This document shows positions 45,301-61,094 of a stretch of DNA of 64,000 nt, in pieces. The stretch is from contig NZ_JAGHKP010000004.1 in the NCBI RefSeq assembly GCF_017742215.1, forward strand, positions 186,001 to 250,000, in the 5' to 3' direction. Every line of letters starts with the position of its first letter. The stretch's first letter is position 1. Under the pieces are notes generated by a model. That model did not search any database and was not told the DNA's origin. It saw only the letters and a list, made by a program, of their open reading frames with translations. Source of the DNA: Chitinophaga chungangae. GTDB lineage: Bacteria; Bacteroidota; Bacteroidia; Chitinophagales; Chitinophagaceae. The position numbers and the translations under genes were made by a program.

Positions 45301-45359
45301 CGGCTTGTTTTTAATTGCTTTAAATTTTCTTTGTTTATCTAACGTAATGTATACCAGTA

Positions 45360-45386
45360 GGGCAATCCAGCGGATTGCCCTTTTTT
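45360..45386 (+). terminator. Rho-independent terminator at the left end of the element
   Basis: The perfect stem GGGCAATCC/GGATTGCCC closes over AGC and is followed by TTTTTT. It lies 60 bp inside the element and would stop transcripts coming from mnmE. Confidence 0.85.
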
Positions 45387-45566
45387 GTTCCTGTTTTATT
45401 TTGCTCGTGTTTTGAAAAGGCTTAGTATTGTTTTGAGATGAAACAGTACAAAACATGATGGGGAGATAAGGAGAAATTGTCAGTATCAGGCAGTAATTGG
45501 CGGTTATTGACACTTCGCGTCTTTCAGGGTCAGTTTTGGGCATTTCGAACACTTAACTTTTTGTCC

Positions 45567-45962: not shown

Positions 45963-47122
45963 GAGGAAAACTGAGATCGACGGAACTGAAGAGCGGGCGG
46001 CTCAGCCTGTATATCGATTACTTTCCGGCCGTGTGGAACCCGCAGAAGAAAGCGTATACGCGACGCGAGAAGCTGGGCCTGTACCTGTACAAGAACCCGG
46101 TGACTTCCTTGCAGAAAAAGGAGAACAGTCTTTGCATGGAGATCGCGGAAAAGATCTATCTCAAACGGATGAACGCGCTGATGCTGGAGGCTAACGGGCT
46201 TTTCAACCAGGACGCGCTGGAGGCGGACTTCTACACGTATGCCCTCAATTTCATCCGTGCGAAACAGCGCGAGAAGGTAGACACCATGCATTACGAAACG
46301 GCGATCAAATACCTGAAGAAATTTGTGGGCGATCACTTCCGTTTCCGGCACCTCGACGAAGAATTTCTCAAGAAGTTCAAAGCCTTTCTCCTTTTAACGA
46401 CTTCGCTGAAATCGGAGAAGGTCAAGCTCAATCAGAACTCCGCTGCGTCGTACTATGATAAATTCGCGCTGATCGTGCAGACGGCGTTTCGTGATAAGTA
46501 TTTGCAGGAAGATTACACGCTACGGGTGCCACGTATCAGCAACGTCGATTCGCCGCGCGAGATCATCGACGACGAGGAATTGCAACTCCTGCTGGATAAC
46601 CCCTGCGAGGACGAGCTCGTTTATCGTTCGTCGCTGTTCGCGTTGATGACAGGTTTTCGGTTCAGTGCGCTGCGGATTCTCAAATGGGGCGACCTCCATT
46701 ATTCCAATGGGCAAGAAGCCTGGTACTTCCATATCATCGATCCCAAGCCGGAGCGGTCGTTCAAACATTACGTCAGCCAGCAGGCCGTCGATCTGTTGGG
46801 GCCGCGCGGGGAGAAGGAGGCGCTCGTCTTTCCCGACCTGAACTATAGCCGCACCCGCACGAAGCTGAAGGAGTGGTTCTCGAGCGTGGGGATGAAGGAC
46901 AAGGCCAAGTTTCACAACTGGCGGCATAAGTACGCCACCAGCCTGATCGAGAAGGGCGAGGATATTTACGTCGTAAGCAAGATGCTCAACCATAAGCACG
47001 TCAAGACCACGCAGATCTACGCGCAGGTGCCCGACTCCAACCGGGTGAAGGCGGCGATGAAGCTCAACTATAACCTTAAACCGAAACCGAATGATGACGG
47101 AGGAATTGGAACAGCGGATTGA
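45959..47122 (+). CDS. int: Tyrosine recombinase/integrase
   Basis: 387 aa. An N-terminal arm-binding part and a SAM-like core-binding domain (about 90-185) precede the catalytic domain. Catalytic residues fit the R-K-H-R-H-Y pattern: R234 in TGFRFSALR, H319-R322 in FHNWRHKYAT, H345 in MLNHKHVKTT and Y354 in TQIYAQV; K264 or K270 may be the lysine. It most likely recombines the mnmE 3'-end sites. The C-terminus overlaps the next gene by 32 bp in another frame. Confidence 0.92.
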   Translation: MRGKLRSTELKSGRLSLYIDYFPAVWNPQKKAYTRREKLGLYLYKNPVTSLQKKENSLCMEIAEKIYLKRMNALMLEANGLFNQDALEADFYTYALNFIRAKQREKVDTMHYETAIKYLKKFVGDHFRFRHLDEEFLKKFKAFLLLTTSLKSEKVKLNQNSAASYYDKFALIVQTAFRDKYLQEDYTLRVPRISNVDSPREIIDDEELQLLLDNPCEDELVYRSSLFALMTGFRFSALRILKWGDLHYSNGQEAWYFHIIDPKPERSFKHYVSQQAVDLLGPRGEKEALVFPDLNYSRTRTKLKEWFSSVGMKDKAKFHNWRHKYATSLIEKGEDIYVVSKMLNHKHVKTTQIYAQVPDSNRVKAAMKLNYNLKPKPNDDGGIGTAD

Positions 47123-47438
47123 AAACATGGAGGCGGACATCCAGCAGATGAAGTCCATGCTGGCCGAACTGGTGGAAGTGGCGCGCGGTACGGGACAGCC
47201 TCCGCAGGAGGAACATATCATGTCGGCCCGAGAGGTTGCGGATTTCCTCCGGATCGATGTGAGCCTCGTGTATAGCAAATGTTCCCGCGGAGAGCTGCCG
47301 TACTCCAAGCTGGGGAAGCATTACAAGTTCCGTAAGTCCGACATCTTGCAATGCATGAAGCAGTACGACAAGGGGAGCGGCATTTCCGTTGATGATTACG
47401 TGACCCGCTACCTCCAGGACAACCAGCTCCGCGGTTAA
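47091..47438 (+). CDS. Second excisionase-like HTH protein
   Basis: 115 aa. An N-terminal coiled-coil (ENMEADIQQMKSMLAELVEV) is followed by an HTH_17 domain (MSAREVADFLRIDVSLVYSKCSRGELP) and a wing YSKLGKHYKFRKSDI. Such helix-turn-helix proteins are accessory factors of Bacteroidota mobile elements. It overlaps the integrase end by 32 bp, indicating coupled translation. Two HTH genes flanking one integrase is unusual. Confidence 0.78.
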   Translation: MMTEELEQRIENMEADIQQMKSMLAELVEVARGTGQPPQEEHIMSAREVADFLRIDVSLVYSKCSRGELPYSKLGKHYKFRKSDILQCMKQYDKGSGISVDDYVTRYLQDNQLRG

Positions 47439-47449
47439 CCCGATGGCCG

Positions 47450-47481
47450 TTTGCCCCTGACGGCCGATTTTCGTATATTCA
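47450..47481 (+). promoter_or_regulatory. Candidate promoter for the 47512-51649 gene cluster
   Basis: TTTG (47450-47453) is followed after 20 bp by TATATTCA (47474-47481). This deviates from TAnnTTTG at the last two bases. A TATATTCA also occurs upstream of the PIN-GNAT gene (54242-54249). It gives a leader of about 30 nt to the 47512 gene. Confidence 0.4.
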
Positions 47482-47511
47482 TACATCATATCCCCCGAAA
47501 AACCTTACACC

Positions 47512-48504
47512 ATGACCCACCTCGATGATGTAAAGGATGTGCCGTTCTATGTGCGTATGAAGGAAACCAATGCGTTTATCAGGGACGTGCCTTACGATGA
47601 CCAGAAGAAGCAGGCTTTCACGATCGGCCGTGATTTCGATAAGTTGGCGAAGTTCGCTTTGCACAATCACTATTGTCTTTCCTTTCTCAAATGCCCTTAT
47701 AAATTCCACCTCGAAACCTTCCTGTTGCATTTTCATTGGTTCAACCGGTATTTGTATTTCAATCTCCAGGATTCGATTTGGATCATCCAGATATTCCCGG
47801 CGTTGGAAAAGTTGCAGACCTATCAGCTCCATTTCCTCGAGCAGGAGTTAAAGGAGTTTCCCCACGCCTATCAATACGACCTGAAATCCGCCGACTATTA
47901 TCAGCAATGGGCATTGCTGAAGAAAACCAACTTCCTGAAATGCGACGATTTCCGAAAGATCATGGAGATCGACGGGGCGCAACGGGCGAGAATGCTTGCC
48001 CATGTCCAAACCCTTTTGTCCGACCGTGGAACCATGCCGGAACCCATTATTCCAGAACCCAAGCCCGCGAAGCGGCAACGGGAAGCCAGCCAATATACCT
48101 ACTTGAAGTTGTCCGACGACCTGACCGCCAGCCAGCAAAACGAAGTGATCCGGGGGCTTTATGAATTATTTACACCGCATTTCCGGGAAGCAAAGGAGTT
48201 TGAGGATTTCCGGAAAGCCTTCCGGGAAGATGGGTCGCCGGTGATAGAACTGCTACGGAACGAGCTGGCGGATCAGCAATATTATTGGGTCATTTTCCGG
48301 GAACTCAAGCAGAAAGGGTTGGCGGTTTCATGGGAAGTTATCGACCGGATGGTGCATATTTATGATAGTGCAGGAAAGAAACTTGCTGGTTTTTCCCGGA
48401 TCAATACCTCCATCGAGCGGCAGAAAGAGCGGAAAGCCCGCAGAGCGGTGGAGCCTGTTATCAATCTGATAGACAGTTATTTAGCGAAAAGGAAGGGCAA
48501 GTGA
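47512..48504 (+). CDS. Protein of unknown function in the element's core
   Basis: 330 aa. I do not recognise the family. The N-terminal part (residues 1-170) is aromatic-rich (FHLETFLLHFHWFNRYLYFNLQ). A Pro/Glu linker near 185-195 leads into a C-terminal domain with a FEDFRKAFRED helix and a basic tail (ERKARRAVEPVINLIDSYL). No membrane segment or metal motif is apparent. It stands between the integrase module and the replication/mobilization genes, and similar genes are expected in relatives of this element. Confidence 0.6.
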   Translation: MTHLDDVKDVPFYVRMKETNAFIRDVPYDDQKKQAFTIGRDFDKLAKFALHNHYCLSFLKCPYKFHLETFLLHFHWFNRYLYFNLQDSIWIIQIFPALEKLQTYQLHFLEQELKEFPHAYQYDLKSADYYQQWALLKKTNFLKCDDFRKIMEIDGAQRARMLAHVQTLLSDRGTMPEPIIPEPKPAKRQREASQYTYLKLSDDLTASQQNEVIRGLYELFTPHFREAKEFEDFRKAFREDGSPVIELLRNELADQQYYWVIFRELKQKGLAVSWEVIDRMVHIYDSAGKKLAGFSRINTSIERQKERKARRAVEPVINLIDSYLAKRKGK

Positions 48505-48612
48505 ATCACGTCCAGTTTCAAATCATTTGCTGGTTTTTCTGTTCGTTGCTGCTATTTGCCTTATTCCAGCGCGCCCCGGGTGCAATTTGCCCATGAAACA
48601 AAAAAATGGATT

Positions 48613-48933
48613 ATGAGTCAATTGCATTTTGTGGGATTGAGCCTGGACGAGGCCCGGCTTTTCATCGAGTCCATCGTGATCGCATGTTTGAAGAACTGTT
48701 TCCCCGCCCCGAAAGTCTCGGAAACGCCGTTGTCCATTCGCGATGCGTGCAAGTTCCTGGGCGTGTCCAAACCGACGCTTAGGAAGTATGTGGAAGCTGC
48801 GGTCGTCCGCCGGCATGACCTCGGGCCACGGAAGAAAGTCTTCTACCGGTCGGAACTGGAGGAAGATATCAAGCGGCTGCGTTCCCACGGCAGCGAATCC
48901 CCTTTACTTGAATCAGAAAAACAACGGTTATGA
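48613..48933 (+). CDS. HTH DNA-binding protein upstream of the primase gene
   Basis: 106 aa from the ATG at 48613; an upstream in-frame start at 48556 is weaker. It has a helix-turn-helix of the HTH_17 type (LSIRDACKFLGVSKPTLRKYVEAAVV). Its position is that of the small DNA-binding protein found upstream of primase genes in Bacteroidota mobilizable elements. It overlaps the next start by 4 bp (ATGA). Confidence 0.7.
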   Translation: MSQLHFVGLSLDEARLFIESIVIACLKNCFPAPKVSETPLSIRDACKFLGVSKPTLRKYVEAAVVRRHDLGPRKKVFYRSELEEDIKRLRSHGSESPLLESEKQRL

Positions 48934-49892
48934 GTGTGAACATTGAAGACGTGAAGAAGATCGACCTGGTGGAGTTCCTCGCTTCGCTTGGATTTACGCC
49001 AGAGCGGAAGAACGAGCGGGAAGCCTGGTATCTGTCGCCGTTGCGGTCGGAGAAGACGGCCTCCTTAAAAGTGGACCGGCAGAAGAATTTGTGGTATGAT
49101 TTCGGGGAAGCCGTTGGCGGGACGATCATCGATTTCGGGATGGCATATTATAAATGCGATATCCCCACCTTTCTTTCCAAATTCGACCACGAACTTTCTT
49201 TTCATGGGCAGCTCGGCCAGCACCATGCCACCCCGGCGCAGGCTTCCCATGAAGAACCAAAGATCCACATCCGGGCCGAGAGGCCGATCACGGCCCCGGC
49301 GTTGATCGATTACCTCGACCGTCGCCGGATTCCGCTGGAACTGGCGAACAGGTATTGCCGGGAAGTTGTCTACCGGTTGGGTAAAAAGGACTATTACGCT
49401 ATCGGGTTCAAGAATGACAAAGGCGGCTTCGAGTTGCGGAACGCCCTGATCAAGTTGAGCAATTCCCCGAAGGGGATCACGCTCTTCCAGGAGGGTTCGC
49501 GGGAACTGAGGGTATTTGAAGGTTGTTTCGACTTCCTTTCTTTCAAGGTATTGGAGGAACAATTCGGGCTTTCGCCTTCCAGTTGTCTTATCCTGAACTC
49601 CGTTGCATTTCTCCGGGAGAGCCTGCCGGTCATCCGGCAATACCCATCCGTGACGCTGTACCTCGATCACGATCCCGCAGGTCGACGGGCAACGGAACAG
49701 GTGATCCAGGATCATTCGGCCGCGCGGGATGGGAGTGACTTTTACAAAGGTGCGAAGGATCTGAACGAATGGTTCGTCTCGGTCTATCCCAAACTTTCGG
49801 ATGCGCAACAACTGGCCCGGGAACTCCAGCGGAAGTTTCCCGGTGACGACAACTCCAACCAGCTCCGGAATCCCGGCCGGAGAATCCGCTGA
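48930..49892 (+). CDS. CHC2/Toprim primase-like protein
   Basis: 320 aa. The N-terminus has DLVEFLASLGF and YLSPLRSEKTASLKVDRQKNLWYDFGE, the shape of the DnaG zinc-binding domain but without its cysteines. The Toprim part has E197 and D201 in FEGCFDFLSF and D246 and D248 in YLDHDPAGRRA. Such single proteins are the mobilizable-element primases, used for replication or for lagging-strand synthesis after transfer. It is coupled by overlap to the preceding gene. Confidence 0.82.
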   Translation: MSVNIEDVKKIDLVEFLASLGFTPERKNEREAWYLSPLRSEKTASLKVDRQKNLWYDFGEAVGGTIIDFGMAYYKCDIPTFLSKFDHELSFHGQLGQHHATPAQASHEEPKIHIRAERPITAPALIDYLDRRRIPLELANRYCREVVYRLGKKDYYAIGFKNDKGGFELRNALIKLSNSPKGITLFQEGSRELRVFEGCFDFLSFKVLEEQFGLSPSSCLILNSVAFLRESLPVIRQYPSVTLYLDHDPAGRRATEQVIQDHSAARDGSDFYKGAKDLNEWFVSVYPKLSDAQQLARELQRKFPGDDNSNQLRNPGRRIR

Positions 49893-49922
49893 TCTATTCT
49901 CTTATCTTAAAAATCTATTGAA

Positions 49923-50231
49923 ATGGCAGAACTGCGTAAGAAGCTGCTGTCGCTCGCAAGCGGCAGGCAGGTGCGATTGTATGGCAGTAGTATCGCGATT
50001 TCCAAAGGACTGGAGATCGGGGAAGGCTGCGCCCCGAATATTTTTTCCTTCTCCGGGACTGAAGGGCCCAACGATCCCGACGGGAAAGTGATAAACGTTC
50101 ACAACCTTTCCGCCAACGATCTGGAGGAGATCGCGGATTATAACATCCAGTTGTGGATGAACCTGAAGGCCAATCTGCGCCGCCATGGCGTCGCGAATCC
50201 AAAGGTTTTCAACCACGATGCCATCCGGTAG
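49923..50231 (+). CDS. Small protein of unknown function between primase and oriT
   Basis: 102 aa. It starts MAELRKKLLSLASGRQVRL and has a mixed middle with no recognised motif (GCAPNIFSFSGTEGPNDPDG) and a basic C-terminus. It follows the primase gene by 30 bp. The position suggests a mobilization accessory, but no family is recognised. Confidence 0.5.
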   Translation: MAELRKKLLSLASGRQVRLYGSSIAISKGLEIGEGCAPNIFSFSGTEGPNDPDGKVINVHNLSANDLEEIADYNIQLWMNLKANLRRHGVANPKVFNHDAIR

Positions 50232-50275
50232 GGACGGTGGGCTGTTTTGGCCTCATCGGGGCGGATATTGGAATT

Positions 50276-50336
50276 GCAAGCGGTGTTTTCGGATGCCGAA
50301 AACCGCTTGCCCCTTGCTCCCGTTGGTCGCAAGGGG
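50276..50336. other. Candidate oriT: two adjacent hairpins
   Basis: The first inverted repeat (50276-50310) pairs GCAAGCGG and the TTTTCGG arm with CCGAAAAC and CCGCTTGC, with a 2-nt bulge. The second (50310-50336) is a perfect stem CCCCTTGC/GCAAGGGG with an 11-nt loop. They share base 50310 and lie 29 bp upstream of mobC, in the spot where nick sites of Bacteroidota mobilizable elements usually occur. The nick position cannot be read from the sequence. Confidence 0.55.
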
Positions 50337-50364
50337 GGATTTTTGAATCGAAAAATTGTGCAGA

Positions 50365-50712
50365 ATGGGCGATAGTGAAAAAGGCGGACGGCCGCGATTA
50401 CCGGTGAAAAAAGAAAAAAGGGTCAGCATCCGGCTCACCGATGCGGAGTTTTACATTTTGATGCGAAGATCCCGGGAAGCAGGTATGAACCTCGCGCAGT
50501 TTATCCGGGACGCTGCGATAAAAGCAAAGATAATCGCACGGCCGCAGCTAAAAGACCACACCTTTTTCCGGGAAGTGATCGGCATTTCGACGAACCTGAA
50601 CCAGGTTGCCAAAGCCGTCAATCGGCAGGGAATCCTTCCGCTGTACACCAAGCTGTCGGAAATTATCACCTTCTTCGACGGGCAAATAAAACGGCTGCGG
50701 GATGATCAGTAA
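50365..50712 (+). CDS. mobC: MobC-like relaxosome accessory protein
   Basis: 115 aa from the ATG at 50365. A ribbon-helix-helix DNA-binding part (KRVSIRLTDAEFYILMRRSREAGMNLAQFIRDAA) precedes the MobC block FFREVIGISTNLNQVAKAVNRQG. It helps the relaxase open oriT. It overlaps the relaxase start by 11 bp. Confidence 0.88.
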   Translation: MGDSEKGGRPRLPVKKEKRVSIRLTDAEFYILMRRSREAGMNLAQFIRDAAIKAKIIARPQLKDHTFFREVIGISTNLNQVAKAVNRQGILPLYTKLSEIITFFDGQIKRLRDDQ

Positions 50713-51649
50713 GGTAATCAGCAGCGCCAGTTTCCGGCGGATCTGCCAGTACGTGTTGGGGAAAGACGGGGCGTATGTCCTGGCCGCTGATGGAATCCGC
50801 GACCATTGCCCGCGATTGATGGCGGACGATTTCGAGGCACAGGCCGAGCTTCGCCGGACGATTTCCCGGCCCTGCTTTCATGCCGTCCTTAGTTTTCCCC
50901 CGGGCGAAAAGGTGACGGATGAATTGATGGAAGAGCTGGCCGGGAAGTACCTGGAAAAGATCGGGATGGTCGATACCCAATTCGCTGTCATCTGCCACAC
51001 CGACACCGAACATCCGCATGTCCACATCATCGCCAACCGTGTGAACTTCCAGGGCAAGGCGATTTCCGACAGCATGATCGGCAGGCGGGCGAAAGCTGCC
51101 GCCCAGGAACTGACCCGGGATTTCGGGTTACGGCCAGCAGAAAAAAAAGATATCTCCCGTATACAGATCAAGGCCATGAGTGAGCCGGAGCAGATCCGGT
51201 ACCGGATTTATTCCGCCATCACCAGCAGCCTGAAGGGGTGCCCCGACCTCGATGAATTGACGCGGCGGCTGAAGGTGAGAGGTGTTGAGACAGTGGTCAA
51301 GTTCCGCAGCGGGACGCGCGAGCCGCAGGGGATCAGTTTTAAGGTCAGGGATTTCTGTTTTAAGGGGAGTGCTGTTGACCGGAGGTTTTCCCTCGCCAAC
51401 CTCCAAAGGGCTATGGCATCGAAGCAGCGTATTTCTCAGGATTCCGGAAATAGCCCCCGGCTGATTCCCCTTCAGCAATCTTCCTCCGGGTTTTCTTTTG
51501 TTAAGGAAGTGCCTATGAAGGAGGTGGCGTCGGTCATGACAGGCATACTGGAGGAGTTGTTCAAACCGGAATATGTCAATAATCAAATCCCGTATGAACT
51601 GTTGCAGGAGGCCAGGAAGAAAAAGAGACGTAGTGGTTTAAGTCGTTAA
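50702..51649 (+). CDS. mobB: Relaxase/mobilization nuclease
   Basis: 315 aa. A relaxase domain contains an N-terminal tyrosine (Y17 in ICQYVLGKDGA) that may be the nicking residue. The histidine motif HTDTEHPHVHIIAN (H99, H104, H106 and H108) matches the metal-binding 3H motif. The order oriT candidate, mobC, relaxase is that of a Bacteroidota mobilizable element. Without transfer genes it depends on a conjugative helper. Confidence 0.9.
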   Translation: MISKVISSASFRRICQYVLGKDGAYVLAADGIRDHCPRLMADDFEAQAELRRTISRPCFHAVLSFPPGEKVTDELMEELAGKYLEKIGMVDTQFAVICHTDTEHPHVHIIANRVNFQGKAISDSMIGRRAKAAAQELTRDFGLRPAEKKDISRIQIKAMSEPEQIRYRIYSAITSSLKGCPDLDELTRRLKVRGVETVVKFRSGTREPQGISFKVRDFCFKGSAVDRRFSLANLQRAMASKQRISQDSGNSPRLIPLQQSSSGFSFVKEVPMKEVASVMTGILEELFKPEYVNNQIPYELLQEARKKKRRSGLSR

Positions 51650-51660
51650 AACAATAAGTC

Positions 51661-52230
51661 ATGGATGAGGTATTTGTAAATATTATGTCGAAGGATCTGC
51701 ATGAGATCCGCGAGGATATGGGACGACAGTCGGGAGTGCTTGCGGATATCAAAGCAGCTTTGATAAAGGTGGATGCCCTGGACCGTACCGCCAATTCGTT
51801 GTTGAAAAGCCTGGAAACTTCGTCCCGTGATGTGGGGCAGTTATCGCAGGACATTAGAGGAGTGCGGGGACTTGTGGCGCAGCTCCGGCATGATTTGGCG
51901 AAGCCGTTGCAGCAAGAGCATCACCACCATTTTCCCAAAATCTTGTGGGCGACTGTTGCTTTGTTGATCGGATTTTCATTAGCGGTGGGCGGTTGGTTTC
52001 AATCTTCTCGAGCGGGGAAGGAGTATAGGGATGCAGATACGAAAATCCGGATGTTACAATTGATGACAGGGGAGTTTGACGGTAAAGCATTGAGGAAAGT
52101 CGACAGCCTGGTGCGACTGGATCCTGCCGGGTTGCGGGATAGCATCGTGCAGGTGGAGCAGGCCCGTGAAGCATATTGGCGGACGCTGGAAGAAGCCCAT
52201 CGATTAAAGCGCAAGGGTTTTGGCCGGTGA
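51661..52230 (+). CDS. Single-pass membrane protein with coiled coil
   Basis: 189 aa. A helical, charged N-terminal half (about 1-95) is followed by one membrane helix (ILWATVALLIGFSLAVGGWF, about 100-120) and a charged helical tail. It has the location and layout of small mobilization accessory proteins that follow the relaxase in such elements, but no family is recognised. It starts 11 bp after the relaxase gene and converges on the RES gene with no gap. Confidence 0.65.
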   Translation: MDEVFVNIMSKDLHEIREDMGRQSGVLADIKAALIKVDALDRTANSLLKSLETSSRDVGQLSQDIRGVRGLVAQLRHDLAKPLQQEHHHHFPKILWATVALLIGFSLAVGGWFQSSRAGKEYRDADTKIRMLQLMTGEFDGKALRKVDSLVRLDPAGLRDSIVQVEQAREAYWRTLEEAHRLKRKGFGR

Positions 52231-52653
52231 TCAAACGCATGGGGAAACCATCGTTACCGTGAGTTCTTTAAAATCGGGATTTCGGGGATTGATCAGGAAA
52301 ATGGTTTGGTCACGCCAATAATTGGACATAAAGGATGCAACGAGGCTAATCCCTCCCTCAAGAAATTGGTGGGCAGACTCCCCTAATTCCAAATCAGAGA
52401 TAGAGGCGGTAGCGGGTCGCAATCGGCATCGCTTTTCAATAATCCGGCAGTCGTCGGGGAGATTGTATTCTACCACCCGCATTGAGGCTGGCAGAACGTG
52501 ACATTCCCGGTAGATATGGCTTTCGAGAATGGCTGCGGCCACAGAATCGAAAGCCGAGAAATAGGGTCCGGCCTTGGATAGCATGAATCCAGCTTCCGGC
52601 TGGTCCCGGAGACGGTAGGCGATATTGTGGTGAGCCAGGCGGTAGAGTTTCAT
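52231..52653 (-). CDS. RES-domain toxin (NAD+ phosphorylase type)
   Basis: 140 aa. It begins MKLYRLAHHNIAYRL and has an LESHIYRE segment. The C-terminal half ends with the RES family pattern ...IFLINPRNPDFKELTV. RES toxins of the Xre-RES (MbcT/ParT) class cleave NAD+ or modify proteins. The start codon lies 11 bp downstream of the antitoxin gene on the same strand. Confidence 0.8.
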   Translation of the reverse strand: MKLYRLAHHNIAYRLRDQPEAGFMLSKAGPYFSAFDSVAAAILESHIYRECHVLPASMRVVEYNLPDDCRIIEKRCRLRPATASISDLELGESAHQFLEGGISLVASFMSNYWRDQTIFLINPRNPDFKELTVTMVSPCV

Positions 52654-52664
52654 GTTGCAGCGGT

Positions 52665-53141
52665 TTAGTATTGACCAAGGCGCATCCGGTGCATGAGGTC
52701 ACGGACTTTGAGCAATCCCGGATGCGTCTTTATCAGGTCGAAGGGGCGGCGGTTGTTGAGGGACTCGCTGGGGCTGGAGAGCCAGCCCTTCAATTGCTTG
52801 GGGTCGTTAAAGACATCCAGCCCGTAGCAGTAAAGCTCCAGTAGCGAAGCGATTTTATCGCTGATCAACCGGCTAAAGGGTTCGTTGTCCTTTCGCAAAT
52901 GAAGGACGCGGTCTGTAACGCCTAACAGATCCGCAAGCGTATCATAGTCAATGCTTAGTGCCTCTTTTATACAGACAAGGTGCTTTTTTGTCAATCGCGT
53001 CCTGACTACTTTCTCCCTTTCGATGAAGGAAAGGTTACGGTAAAAGGGTATAAAATCTGCCGGGTATTCCGGGATGTAGTTTTCATTGAGTTTTGGTCTC
53101 CCGCGGCCACGGCGGGCAGACTGATCGGGTTTGTGTTCCAT
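52665..53141 (-). CDS. Xre/MbcA/ParS-type antitoxin of the RES toxin
   Basis: 158 aa. The basic N-terminus (RRGRGRPKLNEN) resembles an operator-binding tail, and a degenerate HTH follows (SIDYDTLADLLGVTDRVLHLRK). The C-terminal toxin-binding domain carries FNDPKQLKGWLSSPSESLNN and PFDLIKTHPGLLKVRDLMHRM, the DUF2384 signature of Xre-RES antitoxins. It probably represses its own operon and blocks the toxin active site. Confidence 0.85.
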   Translation of the reverse strand: MEHKPDQSARRGRGRPKLNENYIPEYPADFIPFYRNLSFIEREKVVRTRLTKKHLVCIKEALSIDYDTLADLLGVTDRVLHLRKDNEPFSRLISDKIASLLELYCYGLDVFNDPKQLKGWLSSPSESLNNRRPFDLIKTHPGLLKVRDLMHRMRLGQY

Positions 53142-53147
53142 GAGCGT

Positions 53148-53366
53148 TTATTTTGCGATTTTCCGGCGGAGTTCGTCGGCCAGTTCCCAGCCGATGCCTT
53201 TAATGGTTTCTACTTCTATCTGGCTAAAGCTGGCGGCGTTCTTCTGTTTCTTGTGGAAAGTCGCCTTCCGCCAAGCCAGTTCTTTGCAGACCCGTTTCCG
53301 GAACTTGTCCTCCAGGTCTTTGAAATGCTGCGATACCGCTTTCAGTTCGTTTGTCTTTCTGTTCAT
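53148..53366 (-). CDS. Small basic protein in the Xre-RES operon
   Basis: 72 aa. Highly charged and helical (KTNELKAVSQHFKDLEDKFRKRVCKEL); no family recognised. It ends 6 bp upstream of the antitoxin start, so translation is coupled. Its role, regulatory or structural, is unknown. Confidence 0.55.
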   Translation of the reverse strand: MNRKTNELKAVSQHFKDLEDKFRKRVCKELAWRKATFHKKQKNAASFSQIEVETIKGIGWELADELRRKIAK

Positions 53367-53399
53367 AGCGATTTGGATTAATGAACGATGGATCTAATT

Positions 53400-53627
53400 T
53401 CAGATGGAATTGGCCTTAAAAATGACAGTTATCGGGATCTCCCAATTATTTTTCATCTCCTGGAATAGAAGCTCGCTGCCGTTGAACTGGAGACGGGAGA
53501 TCGGAAGGGCGGGCGAGAACAGATCCCGACTGCCGGTGATGTAGATGGTGATGTGGGAGATTCCCAGTGGGAGGAGCAGCCTGGCTAACTCCTCTACCTT
53601 TTCCTTGATGTAGGTGGATTTCTGCAT
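53400..53627 (-). CDS. Small protein heading the Xre-RES operon
   Basis: 75 aa from the ATG at 53627; an in-frame start at 53681 lies in the leader hairpin region and is less likely. A helix (QKSTYIKEKVEELARLLLP) precedes beta-strand-like stretches (SHITIYITGSR, IPITVIFKANS). No family recognised. It precedes the 72-aa gene by 33 bp and follows the folded leader. Confidence 0.5.
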   Translation of the reverse strand: MQKSTYIKEKVEELARLLLPLGISHITIYITGSRDLFSPALPISRLQFNGSELLFQEMKNNWEIPITVIFKANSI

Positions 53628-53651
53628 AAGGCCGGTTTTTTTATGGGTGGG

Positions 53652-53781
53652 GTACCGGCATAAAAAAAGCGCGGTACTCAACCTGCCGCCCAGACCCGCG
53701 AGGATTGGAACACGGACAAGAAGAGCCCGCGCACGAACGCGGGCAAGCCTTCCTCTCGTGTTCCTTCTTTCGCGGGTCTGG
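53652..53781 (-). ncRNA. Strongly folded leader RNA upstream of the Xre-RES operon
   Basis: Two long arms, 53690-53714 and 53757-53781, pair at 20 of 25 positions. They enclose a perfect inner hairpin, GCCCGCG/CGCGGGC (53725-53744). A third stem GTACCG/CGGTAC (53652-53677) follows on the minus strand. A -7 box TAGCTTTG sits at 53821-53828 on the minus strand. It may be an attenuator, an sRNA or an antisense regulator; I know no family that fits. Confidence 0.5.
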
Positions 53782-53967
53782 AACGAGAATACGGGCTATG
53801 CGCTTAATATCTTAAAGCTGCAAAGCTAATATTTTCCCCAGGCATTTTTTGAGGATGCCATTTAGGGTAATTGTAACTCGAATATACGAATTATTTCCAT
53901 TCCCTAGTCTATAGACGTGTAAATTTATTCTTTGGGTGCCGTTGATTCGCCCCAAATCCTTTTACAC

Positions 53968-54198
53968 ATGGAATTGGCACCAATTGAACAATATGTAATC
54001 GATGCGGTTAGGGAGCGGAGAAAGAAACTGGGGATATCGCAAGAGCAACTTGCGCATTTGCTAGGTTATAGCGAAGGCTTTATTGCCAATATTGAAACAA
54101 CCAAAAGAAGTTCAAAATATAACCTAAGGCACATAAACGAGATTGCAAAAGTTCTAAAGTGTTCACCAAGGGACTTTTTGCCTAAGGATGCATTCTAG
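53968..54198 (+). CDS. XRE family transcriptional regulator
   Basis: 76 aa from the ATG at 53968; an in-frame TTG at 53932 lies upstream. The whole protein is one HTH_3 domain: IDAVRERRKKLGISQEQLAHLLGYSEGFIANIETTKRSSKYNLRHINEIAKVLKC. It lies directly upstream of the PIN-GNAT operon in an AT-rich stretch and is a natural candidate to control it, which is an inference. A 192-bp gap with one promoter-like site separates them. Confidence 0.8.
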   Translation: MELAPIEQYVIDAVRERRKKLGISQEQLAHLLGYSEGFIANIETTKRSSKYNLRHINEIAKVLKCSPRDFLPKDAF

Positions 54199-54220
54199 TT
54201 TGACATTGCGGTATTATTTT

Positions 54221-54249
54221 TTTGACTTTAGATAAATTCCTTATATTCA
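54221..54249 (+). promoter_or_regulatory. Candidate promoter of the PIN-GNAT operon
   Basis: TTTG at 54221-54224 and TATATTCA at 54242-54249 are spaced by 17 bp. The -7 variant is the same as that proposed upstream of the 47512 gene. The leader would be about 135 nt. Confidence 0.35.
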
Positions 54250-54390
54250 TAGGAAATATTTACCCCTATCTTTATTAGTTAACCACCTAAGTTACCTCAA
54301 TAGTACTTCATTTATTAAATAGATAAGATTGAATCCAATTTTGCTTGATAGATAAAGCAACATTAAAATATTAAACAAATTCTACGACAA

Positions 54391-55890
54391 ATGAGAATCC
54401 TGCTCGACACTAATATTATTATACATAGGGAGGCGTCAAGAGTAATAAACCAAGATATCGGAATACTGTTTTATTGGATTGACAGGCTGAAGTATTCAAA
54501 AATTATTCATCCGGTAACTGTTGAAGAACTAAGAAAACATCAGAATTCAAGTGTTGTTGAAACTATGTCAATTAAACTTGATAATTATACATTGATTAAG
54601 AATGTTGCTCCTCAAAATGAGTTGGTTGCACAGATAAGCAGCAAAATTGACGTTAATGCCAATGACAGGAACGATACGATGATTTTAAATGAACTATACA
54701 GTGATAGAGTTGATTTGTTGATTTCAGAAGATAAAAAAATTCACACAAAGGCTGGTTTGTTGGGAGTGTCTGAAAGAGTGTTTAATATCGATGGATTTCT
54801 TGAAAAGGTAAACGCAGAAAATCCAAGTTTAGTAGATTATAAGGTGTTAGCGGTTAAGAAAGTCGACTTTGCGCACGTTCAGTTAAGTGATCCTTTTTTC
54901 GATAGCTTTAGAGAAGATTATGTAGGATTTGACAGATGGTTTAATAAAAAGGCTGATGAGGTGGCTTATGTATGTTATACGGAAAATTCACTTGCAGCTT
55001 TTTTATATATTAAGGTAGAAGGAACTGATGAAAACTATTCAGATATATCACCGGGATTTACAAGGAAAAAGCGACTGAAAATTGGTACATTCAAGGTAAC
55101 TGGAAACGGATTTAAAATTGGAGAAAGATTTCTTAAGATCATTTTTGATAATGCGCTTTTATATAAAGTCGACGAGATATATGTTACTATTTTTGATAAG
55201 CGGCCCGAACAAGTTAGACTAATAAATTTACTTGAAGACTGGGGGTTTGTATTACATGGGAAAAAAGTAACCAGCAATGGTGAAGAGAAAGTATTAGTTA
55301 AAAACTTCGAAAAGACACAGCCGATCGATTGTAAATATCCCAAAAAGACCTTTCCCTTTATCTCTGAGAAAAGCAGAATATTCTTAGTTCCAATTTACCC
55401 GCAGTATCACACGGAACTTTTTCCCGATTCTATTCTAAGGACGGAATCCCCATTAAATTTCACGGAGAACGAACCTCATCGGAACGCACTTAGCAAAGTG
55501 TATGTTTCCAGGTCAATTGAAAGAGATTTACAAGCGGGTGACATTATAGTTTTTTACAGAACCGGAGGTATTTATAAAAGTGTAGTAAGCACCTATGGAA
55601 TAGTAGAATCATTAATAGACAAAATACCTGATGAACGAACTTTTATTGAGTTGTGTAGAAAACGAAGCGTTTATACAGAGGAAGAATTGTCCGGCCAATG
55701 GAATTACAGCAAATACAATAGACCTTTTATTGTGAATTTCATATATGCCTATTCATTTCGAAAACGTCCGACTCTAGCCTGGTTAATAGAGAATGGAATT
55801 ATTAGTGATGTGGGGAATGCTCCTAGAGGATTTAGGGAAATATCAAGAGATGATTTTTTGAAAATTGCAAATTATTCTATAGGTAAATGA
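54391..55890 (+). CDS. PIN-GNAT-ASCH/EVE-like fusion protein
   Basis: 499 aa. Residues 1-130 form a PIN RNase domain: ILLDTNIII with D6, E45-E46 in TVEELRK, D92/D95 and LISEDKK with E113 and D114. Residues 185-300 look like a GNAT acetyltransferase, with GNGFKIGERFLKIIFDNALL in the acetyl-CoA loop position and LINLLEDWGF later. Residues 365-499 resemble an ASCH/EVE-type RNA-binding fold (AGDIIVFYRTGGIYKSVVSTYGIVES). The sequence is AT-rich and overlaps the next gene by 4 bp (ATGA). PIN-GNAT combinations occur in toxin-like proteins; this particular fusion in an element is not one I can name. A function in RNA cleavage is inferred from the domains. Confidence 0.75.
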   Translation: MRILLDTNIIIHREASRVINQDIGILFYWIDRLKYSKIIHPVTVEELRKHQNSSVVETMSIKLDNYTLIKNVAPQNELVAQISSKIDVNANDRNDTMILNELYSDRVDLLISEDKKIHTKAGLLGVSERVFNIDGFLEKVNAENPSLVDYKVLAVKKVDFAHVQLSDPFFDSFREDYVGFDRWFNKKADEVAYVCYTENSLAAFLYIKVEGTDENYSDISPGFTRKKRLKIGTFKVTGNGFKIGERFLKIIFDNALLYKVDEIYVTIFDKRPEQVRLINLLEDWGFVLHGKKVTSNGEEKVLVKNFEKTQPIDCKYPKKTFPFISEKSRIFLVPIYPQYHTELFPDSILRTESPLNFTENEPHRNALSKVYVSRSIERDLQAGDIIVFYRTGGIYKSVVSTYGIVESLIDKIPDERTFIELCRKRSVYTEEELSGQWNYSKYNRPFIVNFIYAYSFRKRPTLAWLIENGIISDVGNAPRGFREISRDDFLKIANYSIGK

Positions 55891-56822
55891 AAAGCATAGC
55901 AATCTGGAGCACACCACTCCCTAATACCACTAAGTCAGTTGAGAACCTAGAATTGCATTTCAACCTATGGAAAATTCCAAATGGGGAATCGGGTCCAAGC
56001 AAATTTATTGATATTGGGATCAAAGTCGAGTCTGAAAGAAATATCGATTCGTTGAATCTTTATTTTCCAAAGAGGATTGAAAAAGACGATTTTGAGGATA
56101 TAGTTTCTAAGTTTATTGACAAGCCAGATTTGGTTAGCGCAATATTTAACGAAGACTATGATGTTGTATCGAATGCGAGCACAAAGTTTTATGAGATACG
56201 AAAGGCTAAGGAAACCGTTTTTTACATTTATAGGACTAGCGACACTGATTTGCAATTTACAAATTGCTATGGAGGAACAATTGTGTCATTTAAAATCCCA
56301 CCAAGAAGAGAAAAGATCTATTTCCGGTTTAGAATTAAAGGCGAGTTTGTTAACTCGTTATCTTCTGTCAGCCGTCCAACAAATGCCATATTTCAAAGTG
56401 CCTTTTCTATAATTGAAATGATCGACTTCAGAGTGAACGAGATTAGAGATCTGAATCTCGATCTCCTTGAAAAGATAAGAAGTGACGGTGAAGTTAGAAT
56501 TTCAAAACTTCATTTTTTCTTCATATGTTCAAATAAGGAGGAAGTCGTAGGTAACCACTTGCCTTATGGAAATTGTAGGAATTTGGAAAATTACAGATGG
56601 GATAATTATGTAGATTTGAGGGAAAATAGGGGAAATGTATATTTAGCCTATCATTGGAAAGAAACTAATAAGGAGAATGTAGCAGTTTTGATAAAAACCA
56701 GGTACGAAAAGAATAATTGGTCTACAATTTTTAAGTATCTTTTAATTGGAGCTGCAATTGCTCTTTTAATTGAACTGGTTAGTAATTATGTTTATGATAT
56801 AATCAAAGAAAACTTGAGATGA
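55887..56822 (+). CDS. Membrane-tailed protein of unknown function, partner of the PIN-GNAT fusion
   Basis: 311 aa. The first 280 residues are soluble and beta-rich, with IYFRFRIKGEFVNSLSSVSRPTNA in the middle and many Asn/Glu residues. One membrane helix (IFKYLLIGAAIALLIELVSNYVY, about 283-305) ends the protein. There is no signal peptide, so it is probably a tail-anchored inner-membrane protein. It overlaps the genes on both sides by 4 bp, which ties it to the PIN-GNAT and ASCH proteins. No family recognised. Confidence 0.6.
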   Translation: MKSIAIWSTPLPNTTKSVENLELHFNLWKIPNGESGPSKFIDIGIKVESERNIDSLNLYFPKRIEKDDFEDIVSKFIDKPDLVSAIFNEDYDVVSNASTKFYEIRKAKETVFYIYRTSDTDLQFTNCYGGTIVSFKIPPRREKIYFRFRIKGEFVNSLSSVSRPTNAIFQSAFSIIEMIDFRVNEIRDLNLDLLEKIRSDGEVRISKLHFFFICSNKEEVVGNHLPYGNCRNLENYRWDNYVDLRENRGNVYLAYHWKETNKENVAVLIKTRYEKNNWSTIFKYLLIGAAIALLIELVSNYVYDIIKENLR

Positions 56823-57187
56823 AAGTTGTATTATCGATAAAACCAGAGTTTGCAGAAAAAATATTCAACGGAACGAAAAAATACGAGTTCCGAAAGAGCA
56901 TTTTTAAAAATCAAGAAATAAAAACAGTAATTGTCTATGCATCATCCCCGGTTCAACGTGTAATAGGTGAGTTTGAAATTGATGAGATTATAAACTGTGG
57001 TCTAGATGATTTGTGGAATACTACCCATCAGTTTTCAGGAATTAGTAAGCAATTTTTTGATAAGTATTTTGCGCAAAAAGAGCAAGGCTACGCAATTAAG
57101 ATAAAAAAAGTAAAGAGATATAAACATCCAAAGTGCCTTAAGTCAGAATTTAATCTTCTGCCGCCCCAATCATTTGCGTATTGTTAA
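56819..57187 (+). CDS. ASCH domain protein
   Basis: 122 aa and entirely one ASCH domain. It starts MKVVLSIKPEFAEKIFNGTKKYEFRKS, with the family signature GxKxxExR (GTKKYEFR), and continues with VIVYASSPVQRVIGEFEI. ASCH folds relate to PUA/EVE domains and bind RNA or modified nucleotides. It overlaps the membrane-tailed gene by 4 bp and ends 12 bp before the HNH gene. The whole set forms one operon. Confidence 0.85.
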   Translation: MKVVLSIKPEFAEKIFNGTKKYEFRKSIFKNQEIKTVIVYASSPVQRVIGEFEIDEIINCGLDDLWNTTHQFSGISKQFFDKYFAQKEQGYAIKIKKVKRYKHPKCLKSEFNLLPPQSFAYC

Positions 57188-57199
57188 AATTTTTCTTGA

Positions 57200-58012
57200 A
57201 TGATATGCTTGTTTTGCAACTCCAAAAAAGACTTCAATACGGTAGAGCATATTATACCCGAATCATTAGGTAACAAGGAGCTAGTACTGAAGGGTGAAGT
57301 TTGTGATAAATGTCAAAAACACCTAAGCAAAATAGAGAGATATGTATTGTCGAATACTCCTATGGGTTTTTGGCGTACAATACTTGGGATAAAAACTAAG
57401 AAGGGGAAGTTTGCATCAGTTGATTTTAATAAGAGCACGGAAGATAGAGGTATATTGCCTGATGCACATAAGCACCACGATAATATCAGTTTTATTGCAA
57501 GGGATTATGATTTAACTGAGCTAATTGTTCATAATTCCAGTCAGGATCAGTTTGAAGGCGGAATGCCAACCCAAGTTAAATATGTAATAACACCCAAGGT
57601 AGTATTTGAGATTGGAAGGTTCTTAGGTAAAATCGGACTGGAATTACTATGCCTAGAGAATAGCCAAAATGCACGGAAATCGGAATTTGATCAAATTCGC
57701 AGATATATAAGAAGCGGCCTTGCACGGGATATTTGGCCAATTTTTTACCAAGCAAATGGGGACATTTCGGATCTTGTAAAGTATAAATATCAAGCTGGAT
57801 GTGTGACTGAGGAAGTCTTTTGCTATGACTATTCTATTTTTGAATCAGATGGATATGTAGTATTTAATTTTACAGTGGGTATTGATAATTGGGCTATTTG
57901 TTTAAATGAAATGTTCCCTGATCCTCGTATTATTCAGAAGTTAGAAGAGCGCGGTGTCAAAGTCCTTTGGTATTCTAGAACAAGTTGGGAGAAATCTAAA
58001 AGCAAGGCATAG
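57200..58012 (+). CDS. HNH endonuclease (HNH_5-type)
   Basis: 270 aa. The N-terminus holds a zinc-binding HNH_5 module: CLFC (C3, C6), EHIIPESLGN (E16-H17) and CDKC (C35, C38). The remaining 200 residues are of unknown fold. These proteins are found in defence islands and may cut DNA. It starts 12 bp after the ASCH gene, probably in the same transcript, and shares its AT-rich composition. Confidence 0.8.
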   Translation: MICLFCNSKKDFNTVEHIIPESLGNKELVLKGEVCDKCQKHLSKIERYVLSNTPMGFWRTILGIKTKKGKFASVDFNKSTEDRGILPDAHKHHDNISFIARDYDLTELIVHNSSQDQFEGGMPTQVKYVITPKVVFEIGRFLGKIGLELLCLENSQNARKSEFDQIRRYIRSGLARDIWPIFYQANGDISDLVKYKYQAGCVTEEVFCYDYSIFESDGYVVFNFTVGIDNWAICLNEMFPDPRIIQKLEERGVKVLWYSRTSWEKSKSKA

Positions 58013-58099
58013 CCTACTTGTCGGGTATACATCAGTGGATTAAATATAATCCCTTGGTTTTGAACTAATCCTTCATGAAATTAATAGGAAATTTTAATC

Positions 58100-59884
58100 A
58101 TGAGCCAACATGATAGCATATTAAAGTTACTTACTGAGTTTGATGATAACCAGCTAAGACCAATAAAAGATGATTTGGAAATTGCCAGAATGATCAGAGG
58201 CGCATTGCCGGAAGATGAAGATTTTGAGCCATTAGTTTTGGCGGAGTTATATGCATTTTCGTTATTGGAGGATAATGAATATGGCAAGGCTAATTGGCAG
58301 ACGTATTTCGGTCCAGCATTGAGAAATTCAGGCGGCGGTGAGGTATTCGAGGCAATTCCTTTAACTAAAATTAGCAAAGAGCTTTTGGATTATTGGGAAA
58401 GCAGAATAAATCAATGTTCTAATCCCATTCTTAAGAGTAGGTATGCGGGTTTGGTATGGGAGTTTTCCAAAAAAATAAGAAATACGAAACCGGATTTTGA
58501 TAAGGTTGGATTAGTTTATGTCAATAGTTTACTTCAAGCTGGCCAAGCAGGTCGTTACGTATTTTCACAAACCGTTTTCAAGAAGCTATCACGAGCGCTT
58601 ACTTTAGCGTTAAGTTTTAGGAATAAGGCGTTAACAGGCGAAGCAATCGAGAAAATTAGGAAATATGCAAAGGAACATGAGGATAGTAAGAAGCCTGGTA
58701 TCTGGCGGCACAATTATGACTTAATTGTTAAAGACAAACTTAAGGAAATTGATGAGTCAATTATCGCGGAAATTGTAGATGATTTGGAAGGGAAATTTTC
58801 CTTAGGTCTTACCCCGAAACCTAATGGTCGGCCAGAGTTAAATAGTGCTCATGTCGCCTTGGATAGGCTTTTGGATTATTACAAGAAAATAAATGATAAA
58901 GAGAGTATTAAACGACTACTAGGATTGTTAGCTACAGCGTACGAAGCTGAAGTATTATCAATTCAACCAGTTCAAGCTATTCATCTTTTAGGAAGATTAA
59001 ATGAATATTATAAAACACACAATTTATTCACAGAAGCCATAGAAGTATACAAACGAATACAAGCGCTAAGTCCTGCTGTACTTGAGGCTATGGTTCCGAT
59101 AGCTACGGAGTTTAAAGTATCCAAAGATACTATTGACGATTTTGTCGCAAAATGCATGTTAGGCGATGCTCCTGAAGTTCTGTCGCGCCTAGCTACTGCA
59201 TTTATTCCTTCAAAGGATTCAAAACTTTCGGTGTTTGGTGGGGAGGGCATTTCGGCACTATTAACTAAAAGCCTGCATGATGGCTCAGGCAGGACAGTTG
59301 CCAAAGTGGGGCCTAAGAATGTAGATATTAATGGCAATGAAGTCATGGGTATATCTACAAATATGTCATATGGGTCCGTGTTACTTCATTTTTGTATAAC
59401 GGCAGGGAAAACACAATCCTTACTTACGGTAGGAAATATTATGGAATATTTAAAATGTTCCTGTTTAATAGCCCCTGACCGATATGGGTTGATTGAAGCT
59501 GGCATTTCGGCTTATCTAAAAGGTGACTTTGTGGTCTCCTTACATATATTAATACCACAATTTGAAGCTGCCTGTTTGAAATTGGTTGAATTGAATGGTG
59601 GAAGCATCTGGCGAGAAGGTAAGAATGGCGGAGACAATGTTAGAGTTTTAGATGATATTTTGCGGGATGAACTAATTGTTGATTCTTTTGGAGAAGACGA
59701 ATCTTTTTATTTAAGGGTCTTATTTACGGATCAGCGGGGATGGAACCTTCGGAATAAGGTCTGCCATGGCATGATGAAAACGAATGGTTTTGATTACCGC
59801 AAAGCAGATCGTGTTTTTGTTGCGTTTTTGCTTCTAGGACTTATCAAATTCCAGGAATTTGAGCCTTCGCTGAGTGAAAATTAG
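58100..59884 (+). CDS. DUF4209 (DUF7380-like) protein with HEPN-type RNxxxHG motif
   Basis: 594 aa. The N-terminal and middle parts are helical with repeat-like units. The C-terminal domain ends with LRNKVCHGM, where R551, N552 and H556 fit the RNxxxHG signature of DUF4209 and the Rx4H motif of HEPN ribonucleases. I recall the N-terminal part as DUF7380, but this should be checked. HEPN domains are usually RNA-cutting toxins in defence systems. It starts 88 bp after the HNH gene and is the longest protein of the cargo. Confidence 0.75.
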   Translation: MSQHDSILKLLTEFDDNQLRPIKDDLEIARMIRGALPEDEDFEPLVLAELYAFSLLEDNEYGKANWQTYFGPALRNSGGGEVFEAIPLTKISKELLDYWESRINQCSNPILKSRYAGLVWEFSKKIRNTKPDFDKVGLVYVNSLLQAGQAGRYVFSQTVFKKLSRALTLALSFRNKALTGEAIEKIRKYAKEHEDSKKPGIWRHNYDLIVKDKLKEIDESIIAEIVDDLEGKFSLGLTPKPNGRPELNSAHVALDRLLDYYKKINDKESIKRLLGLLATAYEAEVLSIQPVQAIHLLGRLNEYYKTHNLFTEAIEVYKRIQALSPAVLEAMVPIATEFKVSKDTIDDFVAKCMLGDAPEVLSRLATAFIPSKDSKLSVFGGEGISALLTKSLHDGSGRTVAKVGPKNVDINGNEVMGISTNMSYGSVLLHFCITAGKTQSLLTVGNIMEYLKCSCLIAPDRYGLIEAGISAYLKGDFVVSLHILIPQFEAACLKLVELNGGSIWREGKNGGDNVRVLDDILRDELIVDSFGEDESFYLRVLFTDQRGWNLRNKVCHGMMKTNGFDYRKADRVFVAFLLLGLIKFQEFEPSLSEN

Positions 59885-60015
59885 ACCGTATGGAAATTAC
59901 GTTTATTGAATTTAATAAAATTGAAACTAATTGATAAATAGCGGGTTGCACGTTCCTTAATTGCTTGTTAATGTATATCGGAAGAGGTATCGACGGAAAT
60001 AGGTAACTTAGAGAA

Positions 60016-60306
60016 GTGAGTAAAGCAACAAACATATCGTTAATTTTTCCAAAGCATCTCTTTTGGGATGTAAAGATAGAGCAGTTAGAACCAGAAAGAG
60101 ATCAGGATCTAATTATCCCGCGCGCTTTGTACATGACGAACGAAAAGTCCTTCGAAGACGATATTTCCAGGTTGGAGATGTTTTATTCAAGCGACGAAAT
60201 CGTCCGGAACCTCAAATCCACCAAAGAGAGAATCAGCAACCGCGTTTGTGAGATGGTGGCCCACCGTTACCATATTCCCCCCTTTCACCGATATTCCCAT
60301 CGATAA
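60016..60306 (+). CDS. DUF6922-like protein, presumed antitoxin of the AbiEii gene
   Basis: 96 aa from a GTG start. The sequence ISLIFPKHLFWDVKIEQLEPE followed by LIIPRALYM, and a Lys/Arg-rich end, resembles the DUF6922 family found next to AbiEii/AbiGii nucleotidyltransferases. It is 2 bp upstream of the nucleotidyltransferase gene and is predicted to antagonise it. AbiEi-type winged-helix antitoxins are not seen. The DUF number is from memory. Confidence 0.7.
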   Translation: MSKATNISLIFPKHLFWDVKIEQLEPERDQDLIIPRALYMTNEKSFEDDISRLEMFYSSDEIVRNLKSTKERISNRVCEMVAHRYHIPPFHRYSHR

Positions 60307-60308
60307 GA

Positions 60309-61094
60309 ATGTCCCACAATCAAATTGAAAAGGCTGTATCATTAGAACTTCTCGAGGCTATACGGGAAATCCAGGCGTTACCCTCTTTTGCTGATTTTGC
60401 GTTAGCAGGAGGTACTAACTTGGCGATCCGTTATAATCACAGGAGGTCAATTGATATCGATTTATTCTCGACCAGGATGGTAGGGCTTGCCGGTTTGGAG
60501 AGCATGAAGCAGGACTTGGAGCGGCGTTTCGGAAAAGGACTTTTATTTTGTGAGATTTTAGACCCCGAAAACGGCGAGCAATTTTGCTTTCTGCGGGCTC
60601 TTATTTCAAAAGGTGAAACGAAGATTAAGGTCGAAGCTATACAGAATATCCAGATCGTGGATCCGGTCGAGGAAAGGGATGGCGTCCGGATGCTGTCCGT
60701 GAAGGATATCGCACTATTGAAATTGATGAGCGCCAGTAACCGTAAAGCTAAAAAGGATATCTATGACCTGGACCTCCTCACGTCCGAGATGAGTCTGGAG
60801 GAATTGTTAGGATCATTGCGGGAAAAGTTGGAAAAGTATAGCGGAAGCGAGTATGAAGGACTGTTCGATCTTGATGACAGGAAGAGCCCTGTCGACGACC
60901 TTAACCTTCTATTGGAGTTCGATGATAATAACTATTCAGCACGACCCAATCGCCCGAACCACTCCAATGACAGTATTGACATATTGCCGCACAGCAAAGG
61001 CTGGATTTCCGCACGATCTTCATGGAAATCCAAAGTCAAGGAAGTGATGCGTAAGAGAGGTATAAATCCTCCACCTGCAAAACCCATAAATTAA
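60309..61094 (+). CDS. AbiEii/AbiGii-type nucleotidyltransferase toxin
   Basis: 261 aa. The core motif GGTNLAIRYNHRRSIDIDLFS (GGTxLAxxYxHRxSxDxDLF) is that of AbiEii-type nucleotidyltransferases, and the later LSVKDIALLKLMSASNRKAKKDIYDL agrees. AbiE toxins stop growth in phage-infected cells by pyrimidine addition to tRNA ends. The gene is coupled to the DUF6922-like gene. It is the last gene before the right end. Confidence 0.85.
   Translation: MSHNQIEKAVSLELLEAIREIQALPSFADFALAGGTNLAIRYNHRRSIDIDLFSTRMVGLAGLESMKQDLERRFGKGLLFCEILDPENGEQFCFLRALISKGETKIKVEAIQNIQIVDPVEERDGVRMLSVKDIALLKLMSASNRKAKKDIYDLDLLTSEMSLEELLGSLREKLEKYSGSEYEGLFDLDDRKSPVDDLNLLLEFDDNNYSARPNRPNHSNDSIDILPHSKGWISARSSWKSKVKEVMRKRGINPPPAKPIN

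Follow-up and report, generated by a model that had tools for sequence, protein, structure and literature searches.

A structured RNA element, which on this evidence belongs to a new and apparently undescribed RNA family of Bacteroidota-type bacteria, lies on the minus strand of a Chitinophaga chungangae mobile segment, beside a divergent Xre/HTH regulator gene. Its copies covary in two competing folds, and the RNA adjoins the junction at which HTH genes and cargo cassettes are swapped. The interpretation favoured here, which we rate at about an even chance, is that the element is a bistable leader RNA acting as a transcription attenuator under exchangeable Xre regulators.

The element in the window

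Unless a locus is named, coordinates are positions in the 64,000-nt stretch of C. chungangae DNA that was analysed, referred to as the window. The minus strand of 53625-53820 folds with an energy of -88.1 kcal/mol (z -6.5), and 0/200 shuffles were as low; the plus strand of the same stretch also folds well (z -7.4) because the element is a near-palindrome. An earlier note on this DNA had placed a 25-nt arm pair, a GC inner hairpin and a third hairpin between a -7 box and a small gene, and all of them were located as claimed. The outer arms (53770-53781 and 53690-53701) form 12 perfect bp, the middle arms pair 53754-53764 with 53707-53716, the inner hairpin is GCCCGCG/CGCGGGC, the third hairpin lies around the U-run at 53652-53677 and the ATG of the small gene is at 53627, downstream of the RNA. 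Fold I in the window consists of the nested helices B.B', C.C' and D.E, a hairpin of about 90 nt, and fold II of the helices A.C and E.F. The useful unit is approximately 53652-53828, promoter box and 5' hairpin included. Chitinophaga sp. E66 has the same mobile segment (a 5.5-kb alignment at 93% identity), with an identical hairpin. The parts of the unit are as follows.

53652..53793, minus strand: structured RNA element (match to covariance model R1, 115.1 bits)
53821..53828, minus strand: promoter box of -7 type, TAGCTTTG (TAnnTTTG)
53802..53818, minus strand: 5' hairpin P0 (GCTTTAAGATATTAAGC)
53780..53788, minus strand: strand A, partner of C in fold II
53770..53781, minus strand: strand B, 5' arm of the outer stem, partner of B' in fold I
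53754..53764, minus strand: strand C, partner of C' (fold I) or A (fold II)
53738..53753, minus strand: strand D, 5' arm of the inner stem, partner of E in fold I
53713..53732, minus strand: strand E with the conserved CGCGGGCTCTTCTTG, partner of D (fold I) or F (fold II)
53707..53716, minus strand: strand C', partner of C in fold I
53690..53701, minus strand: strand B', 3' arm of the outer stem, partner of B in fold I
53669..53690, minus strand: strand F (GGCGGCAGGTTGAGTACCGCGC), 3' arm of the terminator-like helix
53659..53668, minus strand: U-run (TTTTTTTATG), directly 3' of F

Discovery and distribution of the family

Blast searches with the element, run against both its own genome and the order, returned three diverged copies that have CGCGGGCTCTTCTTG and GTTGAGTnCCGCG before a T-run in common and in which the stems have changed. 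A pattern made from pieces of these two motifs occurred at 16 places in 13 of the 79 genomes of the genus (a reversed control gave 0), and the folds at the 16 places were similar by eye. The outer stem was misaligned in a four-copy MAFFT alignment, the consensus fold of which gave the first sign of E.F pairing. A covariance model built from 13 copies, with E-values that are rough, matched 61 of the 79 genomes of Chitinophaga, the window's genus, and 55 of 396 genomes in the order, spread over 31 of 164 genera (both at E<=0.01), as well as 21 of 296 genomes of the phylum at E<=0.001, families outside the order included. Two loci carry a second, weaker copy near the first (L084 750-896, 37.9 bits; L109 8852-8995, 30.1 bits).

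No Rfam family reached its gathering threshold in the window, other Rfam matches being at chance level, and a Blast search with the window piece found no match in plasmids or phages. A published description of the RNA family was not found among the matches listed in the open-licence literature. An integron attC site, considered by eye from a GTTGAGT motif, was rejected, there being no partner box to be seen and the motif being lost in the diverged copies.

Covariation in two competing folds

The alignment comprises 102 copies, 100 of them distinct, and was fitted to fold I; the helices of fold II are absent from the structure of the covariance model. Over the 100 distinct rows 88.1% of fold I cells are paired, with a covariation of 0.605 against 0.238 for shuffled and at most 0.110 for slid controls. 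The corresponding figures for fold II are 89.9%, 0.327, 0.237 and at most 0.093, and for E.F alone 94.1%, 0.290, 0.224 and 0.069. A column scan of the 82 copies of less than 85% identity placed fold I pairs at ranks 1-11, the E.F pair 146-199 at rank 12 and the A.C pair 7-48 at rank 17.

Pairs were also compared with null pairs by parsimony on a FastTree tree. All 15 fold I pairs tested lay above every null pair, as did 4 of 8 E.F pairs and 2 of 5 A.C pairs, so that 6 of the 13 fold II pairs have tree support (122-224, 146-199, 151-194, 153-193, 4-54 and 7-48). Tree support was weak for 129-217, 148-198, 5-53 and 8-47, and no pair-keeping change on the same branch was found in the tree for 115-228, 119-225 and 6-51, the pair 119-225 being a standard pair in 100/100 rows. 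The sharing of strands can be followed at single columns: column 48 has 151 and 7 as alternative partners, and column 119 has 86 and 225. A second, exclusive fold that ends in a helix before the U-run is supported, though not at every pair. The check suggested in the earlier note, covariation and conservation of the arms, therefore favours structure, for fold I and for part of the fold II pairs.

Mean energies over the copies were -58.5 kcal/mol for the best fold, -56.6 with fold I forced and -42.6 with E.F forced. The median gap between E.F forced and the best fold is 14.9 kcal/mol, and termination would therefore need help or fast folding.

Strand, promoter and U-run

Non-canonical cells were counted in 82 copies and compared with expectations from shuffled partners. 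E.F has 216 G-U and 13 A-C cells where 256 and 56 are expected, fold I has 230 and 54 (353 and 192 expected) and the A.C helix has 78 and 23 (93 and 43 expected). A-C is depleted more than G-U in every helix set, which points to selection on the RNA of the minus strand. In 77 of the 82 copies the 9 nt that follow F include at least 6 T. In 64 of 100 loci TAnnTTTG is found between -75 and -5 relative to the element. Without this restriction on position, the same 212 bases contain it in 71 loci on this strand and in 20 on the opposite strand, and a stretch about 2 kb away contains it in 9. The arms of the 5' hairpin fold on average at -9.4 kcal/mol with each other and at -6.7 kcal/mol when swapped (66 of 80 loci), and because this hairpin overlaps the promoter box the start of transcription can be placed only approximately. 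Covariation, G-U bias, U-run and box together uphold the earlier proposal of a structured RNA on the minus strand that has a promoter-like box and can fold in alternative ways of the attenuator type.

Genes on either side of the RNA

The neighbourhood of the element in the window is listed below.

53907..53916, no strand: palindrome GTCTATAGAC, a possible operator, between the HTH gene and the RNA promoter
53968..54198, plus strand: divergent Xre/HTH regulator gene, 76 aa (Pfam HTH_3, 2.3e-9)
54186..59989, plus strand: cargo segment, replaced in related loci (locus comparison)
54391..55890, plus strand: cargo gene, PADLOC candidate defence family PDC-M11A (E=5.1e-217)
53400..53627, minus strand: first gene 3' of the RNA, 75 aa, without a Pfam match
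53148..53366, minus strand: small gene, 72 aa, without a Pfam match
52665..53141, minus strand: Xre antitoxin gene (Xre_MbcA_ParS_C)
52231..52653, minus strand: RES-type gene, so named in the earlier note; Pfam gave no RES match
43918-45300: mnmE-like gene, by eye, with the window's mobile element at its 3' end
45959-47122: integrase-like gene, by eye

The stretch 43918-61446 is probably a mobilizable element, with the integrase-like gene, a primase-like gene at 48930, a NikA-like gene at 50356, a relaxase gene at 50702, the Xre-RES genes, the RNA and the cargo; no repeat of the mnmE end of at least 14 bases was found to the right of 53000. In 294 genomes of the family the 75-aa protein had no relative apart from the window's own copy, and a protein-first search for relatives of the Xre protein yielded one locus.

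Neighbours were counted with a simple ORF finder at 100 loci (99 fetched loci and the window), kinship being ignored. Upstream, the nearest ORF is divergent in 84 loci (within 304 bp in 81 of them) and not in 16; 57 of 81 upstream proteins match HTH_26 (Cro/CI-type HTH) and 54 of 81 match HTH_3. The downstream ORF is co-oriented in 89 loci and not in 11, at a distance that varies. It starts no more than 60 nt away in 43 of the 100 loci, 5 of which have it overlapping the end of the element, and this leaves little space for a separate downstream promoter. The 85 downstream proteins include 15 with a histidine-kinase ATPase, 7 with sigma region 4 and 5 with a TonB plug. With regard to riboswitch features, the E and F segments are conserved and the downstream genes are without a coherent function. 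In the TonB-receptor loci examined the downstream gene starts more than 200 nt from the RNA and may have its own promoter. A divergent ORF lies upstream in all 8 further loci from the phylum search (HTH judged by eye) and a TonB-receptor-like ORF, again by eye, downstream in 7 of them, and the model found the RNA in 12 of 20 loci fetched with one such TonB-type receptor. The earlier note had tied the leader to the Xre-RES operon, a specificity that was abandoned: copies of the same RNA precede many other genes, among them histidine-kinase, sigma-factor, TonB-receptor and small-protein genes. Small protein types recur downstream of the RNA (L085 5201-5425, L102 4698-4946, L107 5211-5459, L115 5436-5681 and L119 4566-4835), some with WSxPTFYRK or AMxSxHADxWD by eye, and no listed family describes them.

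Palindromes between the HTH gene and the RNA promoter reach a score of at least 8 in 15 of 60 loci versus 1.5% of shuffles, and these distinct palindromes would fit locus-specific Xre operators. The window palindrome is too short for this palindrome-excess test, and relatives have longer ones there.

Exchange of regulator and cargo at the junction

Four related loci from three genomes were set against the window: in three of them homology ended where the HTH gene ends (about 54185), and in the remaining one it ended within the RNA. It restarted at about 59990 in three of the four, the fourth showing no restart within the fetched stretch. The stretches 59990-60318 and 61011-61446 at the far end of the cargo are common to three related loci, in which the intervening DNA is either absent or different. 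The genomes G813 and G677 share one flank at 95.7% identity over 20.5 kb and, on the other side, a 3.2-kb stretch at 94% identity with a receptor gene; the HTH gene and cargo between the shared flanks differ, and the RNA differs too despite the kept receptor gene. Of 28 locus pairs selected because their downstream genes are similar, 10 have homology through the RNA that starts between -63 and -21 of the RNA; it starts no more than 17 nt from the HTH stop in 11, within the RNA itself in 3, and at other places or past the cargo in 4.

RNA identity averaged 0.64 for pairs sharing only the downstream gene (n=18, 8 of which come from one set of five loci) and 0.54, with a median of 0.50, for pairs sharing only the HTH gene (n=145, a few of which, at an identity close to 1, look like wrong calls of the downstream ORF). 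The values were 0.85 where both are shared (n=30) and 0.515 where neither is (n=2222). There is thus a lean, and only a lean, for RNA similarity to follow the downstream gene more than the HTH gene. The idea that the RNA travels with the HTH gene had been hinted at by G813 and G677 and by the window and L083, which have the downstream gene in common with an RNA identity of just 0.54; it was given up since the comparison of all pairs leans to the downstream gene.

Cargo elsewhere includes restriction, RT, SIR2, QatC and AAA proteins, and Phage_integrase matches 4 of 76 cargo proteins. PADLOC at E<=1e-20 matched 5 of 20 cargo proteins (drawn from 59) versus 3 of 20 control right-side proteins (drawn from 36); this sample of 20 versus 20 failed to show a defence enrichment of the cargo, which is not claimed. 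At one locus (L094 381-4591, the same locus as L030) the cargo lies on the strand opposite the HTH gene and is PIWI/pAgo-like by eye.

Proposed mechanism and alternatives

Terminator and antiterminator folds are the basis of trp-type attenuators and of riboswitch expression platforms. The RNA described here resembles attenuators in that one strand, E, is common to two mutually exclusive conserved helices (6/13 fold II pairs with tree support), one of which is directly followed by a U-run (77/82), and the RNA lies 5' of a co-oriented gene (89/100). It differs from the trp-type and riboswitch systems in that no leader peptide was seen by eye in the window copy, there is no known ligand and the downstream genes are unrelated. 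In the proposed mechanism transcription would begin close to the TAnnTTTG box, next to the divergent Xre gene. Were fold I to hold strand E, no terminator would form and the polymerase would continue into the next gene; in fold II, E would pair with F directly before the U-run and transcription would stop. The divergent Xre protein, probably bound at its own palindromic operator, would set how often the leader is started, and the choice between the folds would fall to some factor or to folding speed. A number of points count against the attenuator, namely the 7 of 13 fold II pairs without clear tree support, downstream genes without a common function, the energy cost of E.F, the gap of more than 200 nt in TonB-receptor loci, the fitting of the alignment to fold I and, in the window and L083 as in G813 and G677, a shared downstream gene with a different RNA.

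The main rival, clearly the less probable of the two although a substantial contender, is an autonomous sRNA with its own promoter, the 5' hairpin and an intrinsic terminator, which would act in trans, its targets being the cargo operon or other mRNAs, and to which the downstream gene would be a mere neighbour. The promoter box and the strong U-run suit such an RNA, as do downstream genes that are unrelated to one another and, in TonB-receptor loci, distant. The published Rfp small RNAs of Flavobacterium psychrophilum are independent structured RNAs that are similar in size, and some of them are also conserved outside that species (PMC9723704); they could include a relative. A downstream ORF within 60 nt in 43 of 100 loci, a competing long hairpin that would weaken the RNA's own terminator and the lean of RNA similarity to the downstream gene all speak against an autonomous sRNA. 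Of the functions offered in the earlier note, an attenuator and an sRNA are both plausible, and the attenuator is favoured.

It is unlikely that the RNA gene or its promoter is a landing pad, that is a point of recombination or integration which the structure serves, in the way that tRNA genes are integration points for integrative elements. The breakpoints of the 28 chosen pairs at -63 to -21, inside the RNA and close to the HTH stop do suggest it, but the second recurrent breakpoint is the HTH stop and not the RNA, the G-U bias reflects selection on RNA and the copies vary widely in sequence. Membership of the known Pedo-repair RNA family (RF01715) is slightly less probable still. Pedo-repair, listed for Pedobacter in a 2010 table (PMC2864571), is likewise a structured RNA of Bacteroidota with a nested outer stem and a 3' hairpin, and copy L003 aligns weakly over the whole of its model (27.4 bits, E 0.0064 or 0.0002). 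Nevertheless this single matching copy is far below the family's gathering score of 150, 0/149 genomes were matched (control genomes were silent too), and a larger scan matched neither the same locus (L033) nor any of 27 other loci. A DNA-level hairpin of the mobilizable element (an origin, transfer or cruciform site) is strongly disfavoured, for whilst the window element has relaxase and NikA-like genes and both strands fold well, G-U is kept and A-C avoided, and the RNA also lies between conserved flanks in two genomes (G813 and G677), where it may lie outside any mobilizable element.

Defence operons regulated by Xre or C proteins exist, as do defence hotspots. Here too a small HTH gene comes first, the cargo is varied and partly of defence type and exchange occurs at a fixed place; what differs is the conserved structured RNA divergently placed at the junction. 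An extension of the attenuator to the whole class, which we regard as a long shot, would make the RNA switch a standard regulatory socket into which exchangeable immunity cassettes fit. Each cassette would supply its own Xre protein and operator to the one RNA promoter, and the RNA would sense infection or cell state and signal to the neighbouring gene and, by way of common regulation, to the defence operon. The covariation in two competing folds and the wide spread of the RNA would make it a sizeable unlisted regulatory RNA family, and its constant position, flanked on one side by a divergent Xre gene with varied cargo and on the other by an unrelated gene downstream, offers a testable clue to the way in which exchanged defence-type cassettes become wired into the host.
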